Below, in pieces: positions 21,618 through 28,227 of a DNA stretch of 41,332 bases (positions are counted from its first letter, which is position 1; each line of letters begins with the position of its first letter). Source of the DNA: Spirochaetales bacterium Spiro_03 (GTDB taxonomy: Bacteria; Spirochaetota; Spirochaetia; Sphaerochaetales; Sphaerochaetaceae). The stretch covers positions 1 through 41,332 of the forward strand of contig LVBE01000050.1 in the NCBI GenBank assembly GCA_001603105.1. Direction: 5' to 3'. The notes under the pieces were generated by a model. It was given only the letters and a program-made list of their open reading frames with translations. It ran no database searches and was not told where the DNA came from. A program made the position numbers and the translations under genes.

Positions 21618-22148
21618 ATGAGAGGACATCTCTACCTCAGCGGCATCAAGCATAGCGGCAAGACAACCTTGGCCGCCCTCATCGCCCCAGCGCTTGACAT
21701 GCCCTGGGTCGACCTGGACGCCCTGGTGCTCACCACGATCGGCGCCTTCCCATCGATTAGGTCGTTCTATCGCGAAATGGGGCAGATCGCCTTCCAGGCC
21801 AAGGAAGTCGAAGCACTTGAGGCCCTTCTCTCAGAGGCGAGTGCACCGCACCTCATCGCCCTCGGCGGGGGGGCGTGTGACAACGAGGATTTGATGACCT
21901 TGGTCAAGGGCAGCGGCACGCTCATCTACCTCCAAGTCGATGAAGAGGTACTCTACCGGCGCATCATGGGCGCGGGCATCCCCCCCTTCCTTGACGGCCC
22001 TGACCCGCGCCATGCATTCTCACTGCTCTACCAACGGCGCCATGAGCGCTATTCCCAGGCTTGCGATCTTCTGGTAGAATTGTCCGATGGCCCTGCTGAT
22101 GAGCAGGCAGAGACCGTGCTGCTCGCCCTGGAGGGCCAGGAGGTTTGA
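21618..22148 (+). CDS. aroK: shikimate kinase
   Basis: The 176-residue cytoplasmic enzyme phosphorylates shikimate at O3 with ATP. The P loop is SGIKHSGKTTLA at 8-19, the shikimate-binding DLDALV follows at 32-37, and the Walker-B-like ALGGGACDN lies near 75-83; the RR in VLYRRIMG is near the lid. Length is typical. The ATG directly follows the TAG of the membrane-protein gene, and the stop TGA is followed directly by the aroC ATG, so the three are one unit. Confidence 0.92.
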   Translation: MRGHLYLSGIKHSGKTTLAALIAPALDMPWVDLDALVLTTIGAFPSIRSFYREMGQIAFQAKEVEALEALLSEASAPHLIALGGGACDNEDLMTLVKGSGTLIYLQVDEEVLYRRIMGAGIPPFLDGPDPRHAFSLLYQRRHERYSQACDLLVELSDGPADEQAETVLLALEGQEV

Positions 22149-23201
22149 ATGGCATACAACACCTTTGGCACCGCGTTCTCGATCACGACCTTCGGCGAAT
22201 CCCATGGAGAGGCCCTGGGGGTCATCATCGACGGCGTCGAGTCCAACTTCCCCATTGATGAAGCGGCCTTGCAAGCGGAGATGAACCGCCGCCGACCGGG
22301 ATCAAACCCCGCCGGCACCGAACGAAACGAAATCGACAAGCTCTCCATCCTCAGCGGGGTCTATGAGGGCAAGACCACCGGCTCCCCCATTGCCATGATG
22401 CTGTGGTCGACCAACCAACGCAGCAGTGACTACGAACACCTGCGCTCTGTCTTCCGCCCCGGCCATGCTGACTGGACCTACTACAAGAAGTGGGGCAACC
22501 GTGACATCCGCGGCGGTGGGCGCTCAAGTGGCCGAGAGACGAGCGCTCGCGTAGCAGCTGGGGCCCTGGCCAAGCAGCTCTTGGCAAAACGGGGCATCAA
22601 CGTTTTTGCCGGCACCGTCCAAGTGGGCCCCATCGTGGCGACAAAGCGACAGTGGGAGAGCGTCGATCCAATCCTCCACTGCCCTGACCCCGATGTAGCA
22701 CCTGCGATGGTAGATCTCATCGATGAGGTGCGCCGCCAGCAGGACTCGATAGGTGGGGTCATCGAATGCAGGGCCACCGGCCTGATGGCTGGCCTAGGCG
22801 AGCCAGCCTTCGGCAAGATTGAGGCACTGCTGGGGCAGGCGATCCTCTCAATTGGTGCAGTGAAGGGTGTTCAATTCGGCGATGGCTTTGCGTGCGCCTC
22901 GATGCGGGGCAGCCAGTTCAACGACCAACGAACCGAAGCAGGGTTTCTCTCCAACCACGCCGGCGGGATGCTCGGAGGCATCTCAAGCGGCCAGGAGCTG
23001 GTTTTGCAGGCCGCCATCAAGCCGACCTCATCGATCGGACGGGCCCAGCAGACGGTGACCACAGACAATGAGACTATCACGCTCACCATCGAAGGACGCC
23101 ACGACCCATGCATCTGTGCCCGGGCGGTGGTGGTCGTAGAGGCGATGGTTGCCATTACGCTGCTGGACCTCTACTACACGGCATTTGGACGGCATGCATG
23201 A
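22149..23201 (+). CDS. aroC: chorismate synthase
   Basis: The 350-residue FMN-dependent enzyme converts EPSP to chorismate, the last common step of aromatic synthesis. Signatures are TFGESHGEALGVIIDG near the N-terminus, RRPG and the FRPGHADWTYYKKWGNRDIRGGGRSSGRETSARV block, and SNHAGGMLGGISSGQ in the C-terminal half. Length is normal. The stop overlaps the start of the XPB helicase gene in ATGA, so helicase and chorismate synthase are on one transcript. Confidence 0.97.
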   Translation: MAYNTFGTAFSITTFGESHGEALGVIIDGVESNFPIDEAALQAEMNRRRPGSNPAGTERNEIDKLSILSGVYEGKTTGSPIAMMLWSTNQRSSDYEHLRSVFRPGHADWTYYKKWGNRDIRGGGRSSGRETSARVAAGALAKQLLAKRGINVFAGTVQVGPIVATKRQWESVDPILHCPDPDVAPAMVDLIDEVRRQQDSIGGVIECRATGLMAGLGEPAFGKIEALLGQAILSIGAVKGVQFGDGFACASMRGSQFNDQRTEAGFLSNHAGGMLGGISSGQELVLQAAIKPTSSIGRAQQTVTTDNETITLTIEGRHDPCICARAVVVVEAMVAITLLDLYYTAFGRHA

Positions 23202-24859
23202 AGGATACCCCCCTGATCGTCCAAAGTGACCGCAGTCTCCTCTTGGATGTCCATCATCGCGACAGTGACGCGTGCCGCAGCGACCTGATCCGCTTCTGTG
23301 AACTGGTCAAGAGCCCTGAGCACATGCACACCTATACCATCACGGCCTTGAGCCTCTACAACGCCAGCGCCCTTGGCCTTACTGTCGAGGCGATCATGCA
23401 GACTCTAGAGAAGTGGTCACGCTTTCCCATCGCCGACAGCGTGCGCTTCTTTGTCCAAGACATGGCTAGCCGCTGGGGCAAGGTGACCCTCACCGAGGGC
23501 GACGATCGGTCATACTACATCCTCAAGATCGACAATGAGCGCATCAAGGCGGAGCTGGTACGCCGCCCCGCTATCGCTAAGCTGCTACAGCATCGTGACC
23601 AGCACAGCTTTCTCATCAACGCCTACCACCGCGGCGAGGTGAAGCTGCAACTGATCAAGGCAGGTTGGCCCGTCGATGACCGCATCCCGCTTACCGGCGG
23701 AGAGAAGATCACCATCTCACTGAGACAGCAGAGCGTCGCCGGCAAGAGCTTTGTCGTGCGCCCCTACCAAGAGATGGCGGCTAGGGCGCTGTTGGGGGAC
23801 ATGGGGCCGGGTACAGGATACGGTGTCATCGTCATGCCCTGCGGATCAGGCAAGACTGTGGTGGGGATGCGGATCATGGAAGAGCTGGGCATGCGCACCC
23901 TTATCGTGACGACCAACGTCGCAGCTGTGCGACAATGGAAAGATGAGCTGGTGGACAAGAGCTCATTGCGCTCCGATGAGATCGGTGAGTACAGCGGCGA
24001 GCGCAAGGAGGTCAAGGCTGTCACCATCTGCACCTATCAGGTGCTGACCTGGCGCAAGGAGAAGGATGGGCCCTTCCTCCACCTCGACTTGTTGACCGAG
24101 GGAGGCTGGGGGCTGGTGATCTACGACGAGGTGCACATGCTGCCGGCTCCGATCTTCAAGGTCACCGCCGAGCTGCAGGCGATCCATCGCCTCGGCTTGA
24201 CGGCGACACTGGTGCGTGAGGATGGGCGCGAGGATGAGGTCTTCAGCCTCGTCGGACCCAAACGCTATGATGTGCCGTGGAGTGAGTTGCAACAGCAGGG
24301 GTATATCGCCACCGCGTACTGCCATGAGATCCGCATCGATCTGCCTGAGGAGCTTGAGATTCCGTATGCCATCGCCAACAAACGACAAAAATACCGCATC
24401 GCCAGCGAGAATCCCCGCAAGATGGAGGTCATCCAGGCCCTGATCGAACACCATCCTGACGACTACATCCTCGTCATCGGCCAATACCTTGAGCAGCTAC
24501 AAGAGATTTCCGCACGCATCGGAGCGCCGATCATCACCGGCAGTACCCCCAATAGTCGCCGTGACGAGCTGTACAGCGCATTCCGTGACGGATCGCTGCG
24601 GATCTTGGTGGTCAGCAAGGTGGCAAACTTCGCCATTGACCTGCCGGACGCATCGGTGGCCATCCAGGTCTCCGGCTCCTTCGGCAGCCGCAGCGAGGAG
24701 GCTCAGCGCCTCGGGCGGATCCTCCGCCCCAAAAACCGCTCCTCGTTTTTCTATTCGATCATCACCCAGTATTCAAGCGAAGAGGAGTTTGCCGCAAACC
24801 GACAGAAGTTCCTTGCCGAGCAGGGCTATACGTATGAAGTGGAGGTGTGGCCCAATTGA
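23198..24859 (+). CDS. bacterial XPB-type DNA helicase (ERCC3/Ssl2 family)
   Basis: The 553-residue superfamily 2 helicase is a bacterial relative of the XPB subunit of TFIIH. Walker A is MPCGSGKTVVG (K219), the DEVH box lies at 310-313, LTATLVREDGREDEV follows and contains the RED motif specific to XPB, and the C-terminal helicase domain ends in QRLGRILRPKN. The N-terminal 190 residues match the damage-recognition-like/clutch region in size. Its role in bacteria is likely repair or 3'-5' DNA unwinding, but is not settled. Start ATG 23198 overlaps the aroC stop; the next gene overlaps its own stop by 4 bases. Confidence 0.92.
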   Translation: MKDTPLIVQSDRSLLLDVHHRDSDACRSDLIRFCELVKSPEHMHTYTITALSLYNASALGLTVEAIMQTLEKWSRFPIADSVRFFVQDMASRWGKVTLTEGDDRSYYILKIDNERIKAELVRRPAIAKLLQHRDQHSFLINAYHRGEVKLQLIKAGWPVDDRIPLTGGEKITISLRQQSVAGKSFVVRPYQEMAARALLGDMGPGTGYGVIVMPCGSGKTVVGMRIMEELGMRTLIVTTNVAAVRQWKDELVDKSSLRSDEIGEYSGERKEVKAVTICTYQVLTWRKEKDGPFLHLDLLTEGGWGLVIYDEVHMLPAPIFKVTAELQAIHRLGLTATLVREDGREDEVFSLVGPKRYDVPWSELQQQGYIATAYCHEIRIDLPEELEIPYAIANKRQKYRIASENPRKMEVIQALIEHHPDDYILVIGQYLEQLQEISARIGAPIITGSTPNSRRDELYSAFRDGSLRILVVSKVANFAIDLPDASVAIQVSGSFGSRSEEAQRLGRILRPKNRSSFFYSIITQYSSEEEFAANRQKFLAEQGYTYEVEVWPN

Positions 24860-26748
24860 GTGAGACAGCAGTGCAGCGCTTCGAACGAGCGGTGGGGCGA
24901 TACAGCGAGGAGAACTTCTTCTACATCGTCCACAACTACCTCGGCCCGATCAAAAGCCCATTTCACAAGCCTCAGCTGATCAGCCGCCTGAGTGGTTTCT
25001 TTGGCCAAGAGGAGATCCAGAAGCGGATGATCGAGCTGCTCGATGACCTTGACCGCGCCATCCTCTCCCTGCTGGTGCTCTCCGATGCGATCAAAGCCGA
25101 GGAGGTCATCGATCTGCTCAGCCCACGCTACGGGTATGCCACCCTCTTTTGGCGCCTCTCTGAGCTGCAGGTGCGCCTCATCCTGCTCAGCGAGGAGGGA
25201 CAGCTGTTCTTCAACCCCCTCATAGAGGAGCCGCTTCGGGCAAGTTGCTCCCTCACAAGCCTGTTCGGCGCTATGGACAGCGGTGGAGCCAAGCCTTCGT
25301 CTCTGAGCGTTGAACTGATTCGAGGCTACCTCTCACTGGCTCTTTCGGAACAGAGGCTGGGCTATCGCGACGTTCACGCTACCCTCTTTCCCTCCTTCGA
25401 TGAGCAGCAACTGAGGCCCCTGGTCGCCTTGCTGGGCGATCTACTGCAGCGCTTGGGGCTTATCATGCCAGGCAAAGGGGTACGGTTGGTCGACGAGCGC
25501 ATCGAGGCACTTTTGAAGCTCAGTGACCGGGCCTTGCATGCCTTGGTGATCGCCGCCTCCATCATTGGCCCTCCACCTGTCCAAAGCGCTGCCTTCGCCG
25601 CTACGTTAGTCGACCTGGTAAGTCGCTTTGAATCGATCGAGGGCGAGTCGCTGACCCTGCTGTGCGCCATCCTTGCCAAGCGCCACGGCATCGCCATAGA
25701 CAGGACAATCATCGAAACGATGCTCACCATCGGCTTGATCGGTGAGGGCGAGCCTCACCAGGTAGCTCGCTTTGATGGACAGGCGGAGGTTGGCCCCCTA
25801 TTGGTGGACAGCGACTTCAGCATCAACTACCTCGGCAAACGCAGTGACGACGATCTGCTGCACCGCTTCGCCACCCTCTCGCTCTATGACCGTCAGCGCC
25901 AGTGGCGGGTGACCAAGGAGAGTGTGGTGCGCGCCTTCGACAGCGGCCTTACGTTCAGAGAGATCGAGGCGTACCTTATGGCCAATACCAGCGGCTCCAG
26001 TGCTCAAAGCCTGATCAAGCAGATGGCGTTGCTCGATGAGCGCTACAGCCTCTTGACGATCTATGATGGGCTCGCGCTCGTCGCAGATGAGCGGGTGGCA
26101 CACCTGGTCGAACACCTGCCTGCCCTCGCTGAACACCGTATCAAAAAACTCGCTCCCACGATCTTTTTGATGAGACGGGACAGCGAGCAGCTGTGGCGCA
26201 AGATCCTCACCGATGCAGGACAGCTCGTCGGCTCCACCCACCGCCAGCCGGTCGTAGTGGCCAAGGAGGAGGCGATCAATCCGTACTTCTTCTCCTACAT
26301 CAGCATAGTAACAAGTCCAAATACTGTCTCGATCGCCCGTATAACGGAGGCAAGCGGCCCATTGATCGACGCCCACCTCTACAACGCCATCAAGGCGTCA
26401 CCGCTTCTGAACCCGGCCCAGCGCCAGGACCTCCTCGATCGCTTTGAGCAGCGCCTCATCCTTTCACCCTCACAGATCAAGGCCCAGGTGCTGGATGCAG
26501 TCATTGAGGCCGGCGGCTTTGATTATCAGGGCAAGCTCTCTCTCTGCCGCCAAGCCGTGGGCAAACAGCACATCACCCTCCTCATCCGTCTCGAGGAGGA
26601 GGAGCTCTTTGTGTGGGCACTGGAGATCTCGACCAGCAGCGAAGGCGATGCACTGCTCAAAGCCTTGGTGCTCTCCACCAAGACAGTGCGCATCATCCCG
26701 ATCCGCAAGATTTTTTCGGTGAGGATGCTACGCACCCAGCTCTTCTGA
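24856..26748 (+). CDS. XPB-associated protein (helicase-associated domain, winged-helix repeats)
   Basis: The protein of 630 residues has no enzyme motif. It is a chain of helical units, and near the N-terminus LDRAILSLLVLSDAIKAEEVIDLL followed by a basic turn and QLFFNPLIEEPL looks like a winged helix. As I recall, actinobacteria such as Mycobacterium carry a comparable large gene beside ercc3 with a Pfam helicase-associated domain. A partner that binds XPB, as p52 does in TFIIH and Bax1 in archaea, is the natural reading, but this is inference. TTG 24856 is preferred: it gives a 4-base overlap with the XPB stop and sits ten bases after GGAGG; GTG 24847 is the alternative. Confidence 0.7.
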   Translation: MSETAVQRFERAVGRYSEENFFYIVHNYLGPIKSPFHKPQLISRLSGFFGQEEIQKRMIELLDDLDRAILSLLVLSDAIKAEEVIDLLSPRYGYATLFWRLSELQVRLILLSEEGQLFFNPLIEEPLRASCSLTSLFGAMDSGGAKPSSLSVELIRGYLSLALSEQRLGYRDVHATLFPSFDEQQLRPLVALLGDLLQRLGLIMPGKGVRLVDERIEALLKLSDRALHALVIAASIIGPPPVQSAAFAATLVDLVSRFESIEGESLTLLCAILAKRHGIAIDRTIIETMLTIGLIGEGEPHQVARFDGQAEVGPLLVDSDFSINYLGKRSDDDLLHRFATLSLYDRQRQWRVTKESVVRAFDSGLTFREIEAYLMANTSGSSAQSLIKQMALLDERYSLLTIYDGLALVADERVAHLVEHLPALAEHRIKKLAPTIFLMRRDSEQLWRKILTDAGQLVGSTHRQPVVVAKEEAINPYFFSYISIVTSPNTVSIARITEASGPLIDAHLYNAIKASPLLNPAQRQDLLDRFEQRLILSPSQIKAQVLDAVIEAGGFDYQGKLSLCRQAVGKQHITLLIRLEEEELFVWALEISTSSEGDALLKALVLSTKTVRIIPIRKIFSVRMLRTQLF

Positions 26749-28227
26749 TCAGATGGAAACGGTGATCCAGTGGGGATAGTGGTAGCCACTGAACGCCTCA
26801 AACTGCAACTTGCCCTGCTCCATCAACATGTGAGAGCCGTCGACAGTGGCACAGCCGGCCTCTTTGGCACGGCGCAGGAAGGTCGTCTCTCGTGGCTCAT
26901 AGATCAGCTCGTAGGCGATCTCCGAACCGGTGAACACAAAGGATGGGATCGGGTCCTTGTCGCTGTCCATACCCACGGTCGTGGTCTGCACGACCAGGTC
27001 CACCGTCCCACTGTAGAGCGGGGCGTTTTCCAGGGTGTCGTAACTACTCATCGTCTGCTCGGCGAGGACGCGGGCAGCATCGATGGAACGATTGACGATG
27101 GTAATCTTCACCCCATGGTTATGCAAAGCCCATGCCACAGCCCTCGCTGCCCCGCCGGCGCCGACGATGAGGGCGCCCTTGATCGTCCCATCGCTGATAC
27201 GGTCAGCGATGGGTGCAAGAAAGCCGTAGTAGTCGGTGTTGATGCCCTTCCACATCCCCTTGATCCGCACCACGGTATTGCATGATCCGATCTGCTTGAC
27301 CTCTCGTGTAATCCTGCCCAGGTAGGGCTGTACGCTGCGTTTATGGGGGACAGTGACCGAGAACCCACGGATCTGCAGCATCTCGGCGATCTTGAAGAAG
27401 GTGCGTACTTGGTCGACCAAAAATGGGACATAGACCGCGTTGTAGCGGATGGCGGCAAAACCAGGGTTATGGATCTTCGGGCTCGCCGTATGGTAGACCG
27501 GGTTGCCAATGATGGCATAGATGTGGGTCTTTTCATCGAGGCGGTCGGCGCGATACAGCTCGCTCATCACCCGGGCTGTCAATTGGCCGGGGGCTGCCTC
27601 CCCGTCGCTGCAGTAACTGAGCATCGAGCCGGTACGGCGGTAGAGAATCCGGGTGGGAACACCCCACGCGCCCATGCCGACGATGATCTTATCTTCGATG
27701 GTGGCAAGTTCAGCCTCGATACGCAGAAGGCTGATGACGTCCATCAGATTCTGGGGCGTGACGGCGACCTTGGGAATGTCGCCTCTGGAGGCGAGGCGGC
27801 TGATACGAGCGTAGATATCGGCAGGAACTCCCTCAAAGTCGTGGTAGCTACGAATGATCTTGATGCCTCGCGCTTTCAGGTCTGCCTCCAAATCGATGCG
27901 CCCGTCCCCCTGTGGGGATTTGAACTTCAAATCACTCTTTTTCACATCCCCTTCAATATCGACATACGTCCAGGCTCCTCGGCTGGCGTCGAAGAGACTC
28001 TGAAGCCGCACCTTCTCAGCATCGGCGCATGCCCCTCCGTCGCTTGTGCGGCGATGGGTGAGGATCAGGGGGAGGTCGACCATGTCAGGAAAAGAGGCTG
28101 CAATGTGCCGTTCGGCCTCTGTGAGGTAGTCAAGGCGCAGTTCAGCGAGCGAGATCCAGGGGCGGTTGCGCTCAATCTGCAGCCGGTTCTCCTCCAAGGT
28201 AGAGCCGGTAAGGGTTAGGCAAAGCAC
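26749..28227 (-). CDS. aroDE: bifunctional 3-dehydroquinate dehydratase / shikimate dehydrogenase (AroD-AroE fusion)
   Basis: The 492-residue protein joins two consecutive steps. Residues 1 to about 228 are a type I dehydroquinate dehydratase with H129 (SYHDF) and the Schiff-base K153 (IPKVAVTP). Residues about 235-492 are a shikimate dehydrogenase with IIGNPVYHTASPKIHN, the catalytic K296 in VTVPHK, NTD at 330-332 and the NADP turn GAGGAARA near 357-363. The fusion is known from plants, chlamydiae and some other bacteria. GTG 28227 follows AGGAGG by six bases. It ends next to the XPB-partner gene, with no spacer, and lies on the opposite strand to aroK-aroC. Confidence 0.94.
   Translation of the reverse strand: MLCLTLTGSTLEENRLQIERNRPWISLAELRLDYLTEAERHIAASFPDMVDLPLILTHRRTSDGGACADAEKVRLQSLFDASRGAWTYVDIEGDVKKSDLKFKSPQGDGRIDLEADLKARGIKIIRSYHDFEGVPADIYARISRLASRGDIPKVAVTPQNLMDVISLLRIEAELATIEDKIIVGMGAWGVPTRILYRRTGSMLSYCSDGEAAPGQLTARVMSELYRADRLDEKTHIYAIIGNPVYHTASPKIHNPGFAAIRYNAVYVPFLVDQVRTFFKIAEMLQIRGFSVTVPHKRSVQPYLGRITREVKQIGSCNTVVRIKGMWKGINTDYYGFLAPIADRISDGTIKGALIVGAGGAARAVAWALHNHGVKITIVNRSIDAARVLAEQTMSSYDTLENAPLYSGTVDLVVQTTTVGMDSDKDPIPSFVFTGSEIAYELIYEPRETTFLRRAKEAGCATVDGSHMLMEQGKLQFEAFSGYHYPHWITVSI

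Follow-up and report, generated by a model that had tools for sequence, protein, structure and literature searches.

The window (the whole 41,332-nt stretch of DNA analysed here) belongs to a draft spirochaete genome of 2.34 Mb, which is 93% complete and divided among 238 contigs. Four genes are arranged head to tail on its forward strand, namely aroK (21618–22148), aroC (22149–23201), a gene for an XPB helicase (23198–24859) and a gene for a second, larger protein, referred to here as the partner (24856–26748).

The XPB gene starts with the ATG at 23198 and terminates with the stop codon at 24857–24859. Its product, of 553 aa, matches PF16203, PF04851 and PF00271, and is a full-length member of the NCBIfam family repair_heli_XPB (NF045503), with a score of 813.7 bits (cut-off 610). 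The XPB motifs are intact: GSGKT at residue 216, DEVH at 310, LTAT at 334, RED at 340 and QRLGRILRPK at 503. Residues 6–133 (23213–23596, forward strand) represent the XPB N-terminal domain, or NTD (PF13625, E value 1.3e-27). This is the part of XPB that docks on p52 within TFIIH (PMC6422496).

The XPB and partner genes are translationally coupled. The XPB stop codon overlaps the TTG start of the partner in the sequence TTGA (24856–24859), just as the aroC stop codon overlaps the XPB start in ATGA (23198–23201), and an XTGA junction between XPB and the partner was also found in most relatives that belong to the window's genus. A GGAGG (24841–24845), situated 10 nt 5′ of the TTG, probably serves the partner as its ribosome-binding site, and translation could alternatively begin at an in-frame GTG at 24847. 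A preliminary description of this locus, in which an XPB helicase with RED and DEVH motifs was said to overlap by 4 bases with a 630-residue gene, was therefore borne out.

Domains and fold of the partner protein

In human TFIIH, p52 is the subunit that holds and controls XPB, and p52 and p8 are mutated in xeroderma pigmentosum and trichothiodystrophy. The partner gene, of 630 codons with its stop at 26746–26748, was assigned as p52-like from profile comparisons, an AlphaFold2 model and Foldseek. The sole Pfam match of its product was to PF13625 (residues 332–432), with an E value of 6.6e-6 that falls under the cut-off. That family, which takes its name in InterPro from the N-terminal domain of XPB/Ssl2, is common to the partner, where it is weak, and to the NTD of the neighbouring XPB; existing database annotation may thus already point to some of the relations described here. 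The stretch PLIVQSDRSLLLDV of XPB and the stretch PLLVDSDFSINYLG of the partner are similar by eye.

Searches with the single sequence of the window partner gave no match in the PDB and, by tblastn, none among plasmids, and profiles were therefore built. Profile A1 comprised 41 relatives of the partner from the window's class, A5 included more lineages and A8 was a third set. With A1, the best six distinct PDB sequences were p52/Tfb2 from yeast, Chaetomium and human; these were followed by one unrelated entry and then by XPB NTDs. With A8, all 17 of the matches at E≤0.1 were to p52, XPB or TFB5. A family profile of the p8-like segment described below matched TFB5/p8 first (E value 8e-4), the next, unrelated match being at 0.17. 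The profile of the partner's N-terminal region alone gave no sequence match. The window partner itself does not match the Pfam Tfb2 family (PF03849) up to an E value of 0.1, so it is classed as a p52-like homologue and not as a Tfb2 member; PF03849 was matched weakly by 5 of 41 relatives in one set (best E value 6.8e-5) and by 2 of 25 in another (2e-6).

The AlphaFold2 model, built on the A1 alignment, had a mean pLDDT of 84.3 and a pTM of 0.74. All 18 Foldseek matches of this model at E≤1e-3 were p52/Tfb2 chains, and in VIA-align its residues 20–457 are collinear with residues 21–461 of p52. In the model, residues 18–300 (24907–25755) constitute a helical and winged-helix region, within which residues 62–131 resemble winged-helix regulators (Z about 8). 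Residues 311–400 (25786–26055) form a clutch domain that is homologous, as judged from PF13625 and from its fold, to the XPB NTD and to the clutch of p52; its comparison with the human XPB NTD in VIA-align gave a Z of 12.3 and an rmsd of 2.0 Å over 88 residues. Next is the p52 C-terminal or p8-like domain, residues 402–457 (26059–26226), delimited by the alignment to p52 up to residue 461 and by the segment profile. The protein ends in a WYL-like domain, residues 555–630 (26518–26745), recognized by fold comparison with the WYL domains of BrxR, PafBC and DriD (Z about 10, rmsd 2.0–2.8 over 71–75 residues). The window partner has no match to Pfam WYL; in actinobacterial relatives that family is found above cut-off.

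Superposition of the entire model on p52 is loose, with an rmsd of 16–20 Å, because the angles between domains differ along what is a chain of hinged domains. The likeness to p52 therefore rests on the identity and order of the domains. It is apparent that the preliminary description of the protein as helical, winged-helix-like and devoid of an enzyme motif is appropriate for residues 1–300, but the clutch, p8-like and WYL-like domains had been missed.

It might be argued that these similarities arose in parallel, through the copying of an XPB NTD onto a winged-helix protein within prokaryotes; the product would still bind XPB via the same pair of domains. The only Pfam family matched by most members is that of the XPB NTD, not Tfb2, and the N-terminal region has no sequence likeness to p52, both of which are consistent with such an origin. 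Two further results are not. The profiles favour p52 over XPB NTDs, with E values of 4e-7 versus 0.03 for A1 and, for A5, 2.1e-10 (human p52) versus 3.7e-6, so that p52/Tfb2, with which the preliminary description had suggested a comparison, is the best match among solved structures. In addition, the domain that follows the clutch also matches p8/TFB5, and the p52 order is kept. A parallel origin thus appears unlikely, although it deserves serious consideration.

Linkage and co-occurrence of the partner with XPB

A genome-wide scan with Paenibacillus XPB provided 80 named XPB loci, from Bacillota, Planctomycetota, Desulfobacterota, Sumerlaeota, Neomarinimicrobiota, Elusimicrobia, spirochaetes and methane-metabolising archaea. 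The partner was present in the flank at 65 of the 80 (46 downstream and 19 upstream), very frequently with the 4-base overlap, and XPB and the partner family were also found on plasmids of Deinococcus, Actinomyces, Nocardia, Nonomuraea and a cyanobacterium. The actinobacterial relatives tested were those of Nocardia, Nonomuraea and Actinomyces. No fusion of XPB and the partner was observed in 164 XPB frames. The proteins designated 'helicase-associated domain-containing protein' by NCBI that adjoin XPB in Deinococcus, Paenibacillus and Actinomyces are of the same family by profile; the designation carries no function and leaves the relation to p52 unstated.

Linkage is accompanied by co-occurrence. 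All seven of the genomes tested in which XPB has no adjacent partner (three of Brevibacillus, one of Ammoniphilus and three of ANME-1/Methanophagales) carry the partner elsewhere. Among 299 genomes from the phylum of Paenibacillus, both genes were detected in 21, the partner only in none, XPB only in 3 (divergent XPBs) and neither in 275, for a Fisher p of 2e-29 that is uncorrected for phylogeny. In the window's class, outside two small-genome families, 51 of the 52 genomes with the partner also contain XPB, the exception being a fragmented draft; in the two small-genome families both genes are missing from 17 of 17 genomes, and in family f5 they are absent together. The partner adjoins XPB in most genomes of the class and is unlinked in G019, G126, G149, G165, G173 and G238. 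The association is therefore more than one of linkage.

Exceptions were observed in both directions. In family f21, XPB is present and no partner was found with A1, a narrower profile. The partner was found and XPB was not detected in five genomes from other classes of the window's phylum that are 90–95% complete (G077, G100, G112, G127 and G139), and in several less complete ones. These cases may reflect assembly gaps, although the occurrence of three of them in one genus raises doubt; a partner that works alone is the alternative for the five genomes named. The preliminary description had held that widespread occurrence of the partner without XPB would speak against a dedicated pair. What was found is its presence in none of the 275 XPB-less genomes of one phylum, with a few exceptions in incomplete genomes of another.

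A natural in-frame read-through pair, from locus L087, was used as the input for a co-fold of XPB and the partner, with the stop codon read as Gly and the chain cut to 1200 residues. The XPB half of the resulting model matches TFIIH XPB, NTD included (3.9 Å over 575 columns). The pTM of the co-fold was 0.57, a value that two independently placed proteins would, by estimate, also reach. Mutual information for 134 XPB–partner pairs (Neff about 85) revealed no clear excess between the NTD and the clutch.

As the co-fold gave no demonstrable interface, and as the winged-helix and WYL folds are like those of PafBC, BrxR and DriD, which are transcription factors, it could be supposed that the partner is a WYL DNA-binding regulator merely co-transcribed with XPB (a damage-responsive transcription factor, for example), with a clutch that self-associates. 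The distribution data render this quite improbable. XPB and the partner co-occur even when unlinked, and the constant parts of the family are the clutch and the p8-like domain, not WYL. Outside the window's class, partners of p52 length (430–520 aa) abut or overlap XPB, and partners of 640–670 aa are unlinked; both kinds end soon after the p8-like domain and have no WYL domain. PafBC, DriD and BrxR are transcription factors, whereas the WYL domain of the window partner is an accessory element at the end of a protein whose main body is p52-like.

The sole prokaryotic XPB partner in the literature searched is archaeal Bax1 (a DUF790 nuclease), and the archaeal XPB–Bax1 system resembles the present pair in that XPB has a dedicated partner. 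Bax1, however, is a nuclease that binds the HD2 and thumb motif of XPB, and Archaeoglobus XPB, which belongs to that system, is without the standard N-terminal domain that the window XPB possesses. No nuclease family was matched by the window partner, or consistently by its relatives, and the window genome lacks DUF790/Bax1, as do those genomes of Paenibacillus, Brevibacillus, Methanoperedens and Treponema that were tested. Identity with a Bax1-like nuclease was accordingly rejected, a helicase–nuclease machine is very improbable, and the term 'nuclease-free' applied to the partner in the preliminary description is in keeping with these data.

Equally hard to credit is a functional tie between repair and aromatic synthesis, which the preliminary description had drawn from the position of the pair behind aroK and aroC: the window's genus and several further genera of its family share the order aroK-aroC-XPB-partner, but another genus of that family lacks it, as does every other family checked, and the partner family adjoins XPB in unrelated neighbourhoods. 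The aroK-aroC context is ordinary family-level synteny. Abutting the partner stop codon, in convergent orientation, is a 492-aa frame (26749–28227, reverse strand) that by eye resembles a fused 3-dehydroquinase and shikimate dehydrogenase; counting this frame, three shikimate genes flank the pair.

A proposed p52-type module

We conclude that an XPB–p52 module is present in many bacteria and some archaea, its genes usually touching. The partner is, with high probability, a prokaryotic homologue of p52/Tfb2, equipped in this instance with a C-terminal WYL domain, and a dedicated regulatory partner of an NTD-bearing XPB. The profiles, the fold, linkage across many phyla and co-occurrence thus support the suggestion, made in the preliminary description, that the pair is TFIIH-like and that XPB has a partner of the p52 type. 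As in the p52 (GTF2H4/Tfb2) and p8 (GTF2H5/TFB5) of TFIIH, winged helices, clutch and p8-like domain follow one another in the same order, and the XPB concerned bears an NTD. Unlike p52 of TFIIH, the window partner is prokaryotic, operonic with XPB and below the detection of Pfam Tfb2, and its family often has an extra WYL domain; neither a p34 nor a p8 gene was seen within the window.

No report of a prokaryotic p52 was found in the open-access literature. The one paper found that takes up the question, a study of Mycobacterium tuberculosis XPB, states that no bacterial homologues of p44 and p52 had been found and that a TFIIH-like complex is hence not expected (PMC3353954), and the 'TFIIH-like' family in a 2022 archaeal survey is related to RAD25, not to p52 (PMC9258230).

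A mechanism may be proposed by analogy with TFIIH. The partner would bind XPB physically, its clutch and the homologous XPB NTD pairing as a pseudo-symmetric dimer as they do in TFIIH. The p8-like domain would cradle RecA2 of XPB, thereby setting the ATPase rate, which would be on without DNA and limited with DNA; p52/p8 of Chaetomium both stimulate and limit the XPB ATPase (PMC7708078). By homology, the partner would then be an activator of XPB, possibly in DNA repair. The N-terminal winged helices could position the motor, either on DNA or on a different protein. In partners that have one, the WYL domain might signal the presence of single-stranded DNA or of a nucleotide ligand, a guess suggested by the ssDNA-bound structures of DriD.

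At three Deinococcus loci, a gene of 99–115 aa lies between XPB and the partner and overlaps the partner start (L142:7744-8043, L272:7741-8070 and L273:7737-8084). These genes were identified with a p8-domain profile; a p8-like profile built without Deinococcus matches them at 5e-10, 7e-5 and 1e-4 among 5,447 small frames, and shuffled small frames gave no match to it. The N terminus of the Deinococcus protein (KRRGRPPK) is AT-hook-like. From its sequence, the gene looks like one for a stand-alone p8-type subunit. Among the loci scanned, a separate p8-like gene was found only in Deinococcus, and Tfb5 above cut-off was found in none of five genomes, the window's included. A 99-aa neighbour gene in Actinomyces was considered as a p8 candidate and rejected, as it is not p8-like.

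It is tempting to speculate that the XPB-p52-p8 arm of eukaryotic TFIIH derives from a repair module of two or three prokaryotic genes, composed of an NTD-bearing XPB, a docking p52 homologue and, as in Deinococcus, a p8-like subunit. Bacteria and archaea would then possess a working minimal TFIIH motor, gated in some of them by a WYL sensor of ssDNA. We regard this proposal as plausible but evenly balanced. A prokaryotic XPB–p52 module is, in any event, relevant to the origin of TFIIH. The weak activity observed in the 2012 study of M. tuberculosis XPB would be accounted for if a p52-like partner had been missing; the role of XPB in bacteria is now open to testing, and the pair, as a bacterial system of only two proteins, is a simple one in which to study the control of XPB by p52/p8.

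Several loci depart from the usual arrangement. Two p52-like genes surround a single XPB at L201, L206 and L244, which hints that the partners may be duplicated or heteromeric. At three loci of the Desulfobacterota type (L189:1841-3277, L194:7653-9068 and L201:5233-6648), a gene of 471–478 aa that has no Pfam match is situated between XPB and the p52-like gene, and possibly encodes a further subunit. The partner seems to be split at L110:5116-7503, in the 1.14-Mb genome (G056) of a small-genome relative, where about 90 N-terminal codons lie in a different frame, which one stop codon interrupts; the cause could be decay, an error in sequencing or the use of a different start. Finally, a resistance plasmid of C. 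diphtheriae carries, beside an IS3 element, an XPB-like frame (L147:5983-7563) that matches XPB only over its first 65%.
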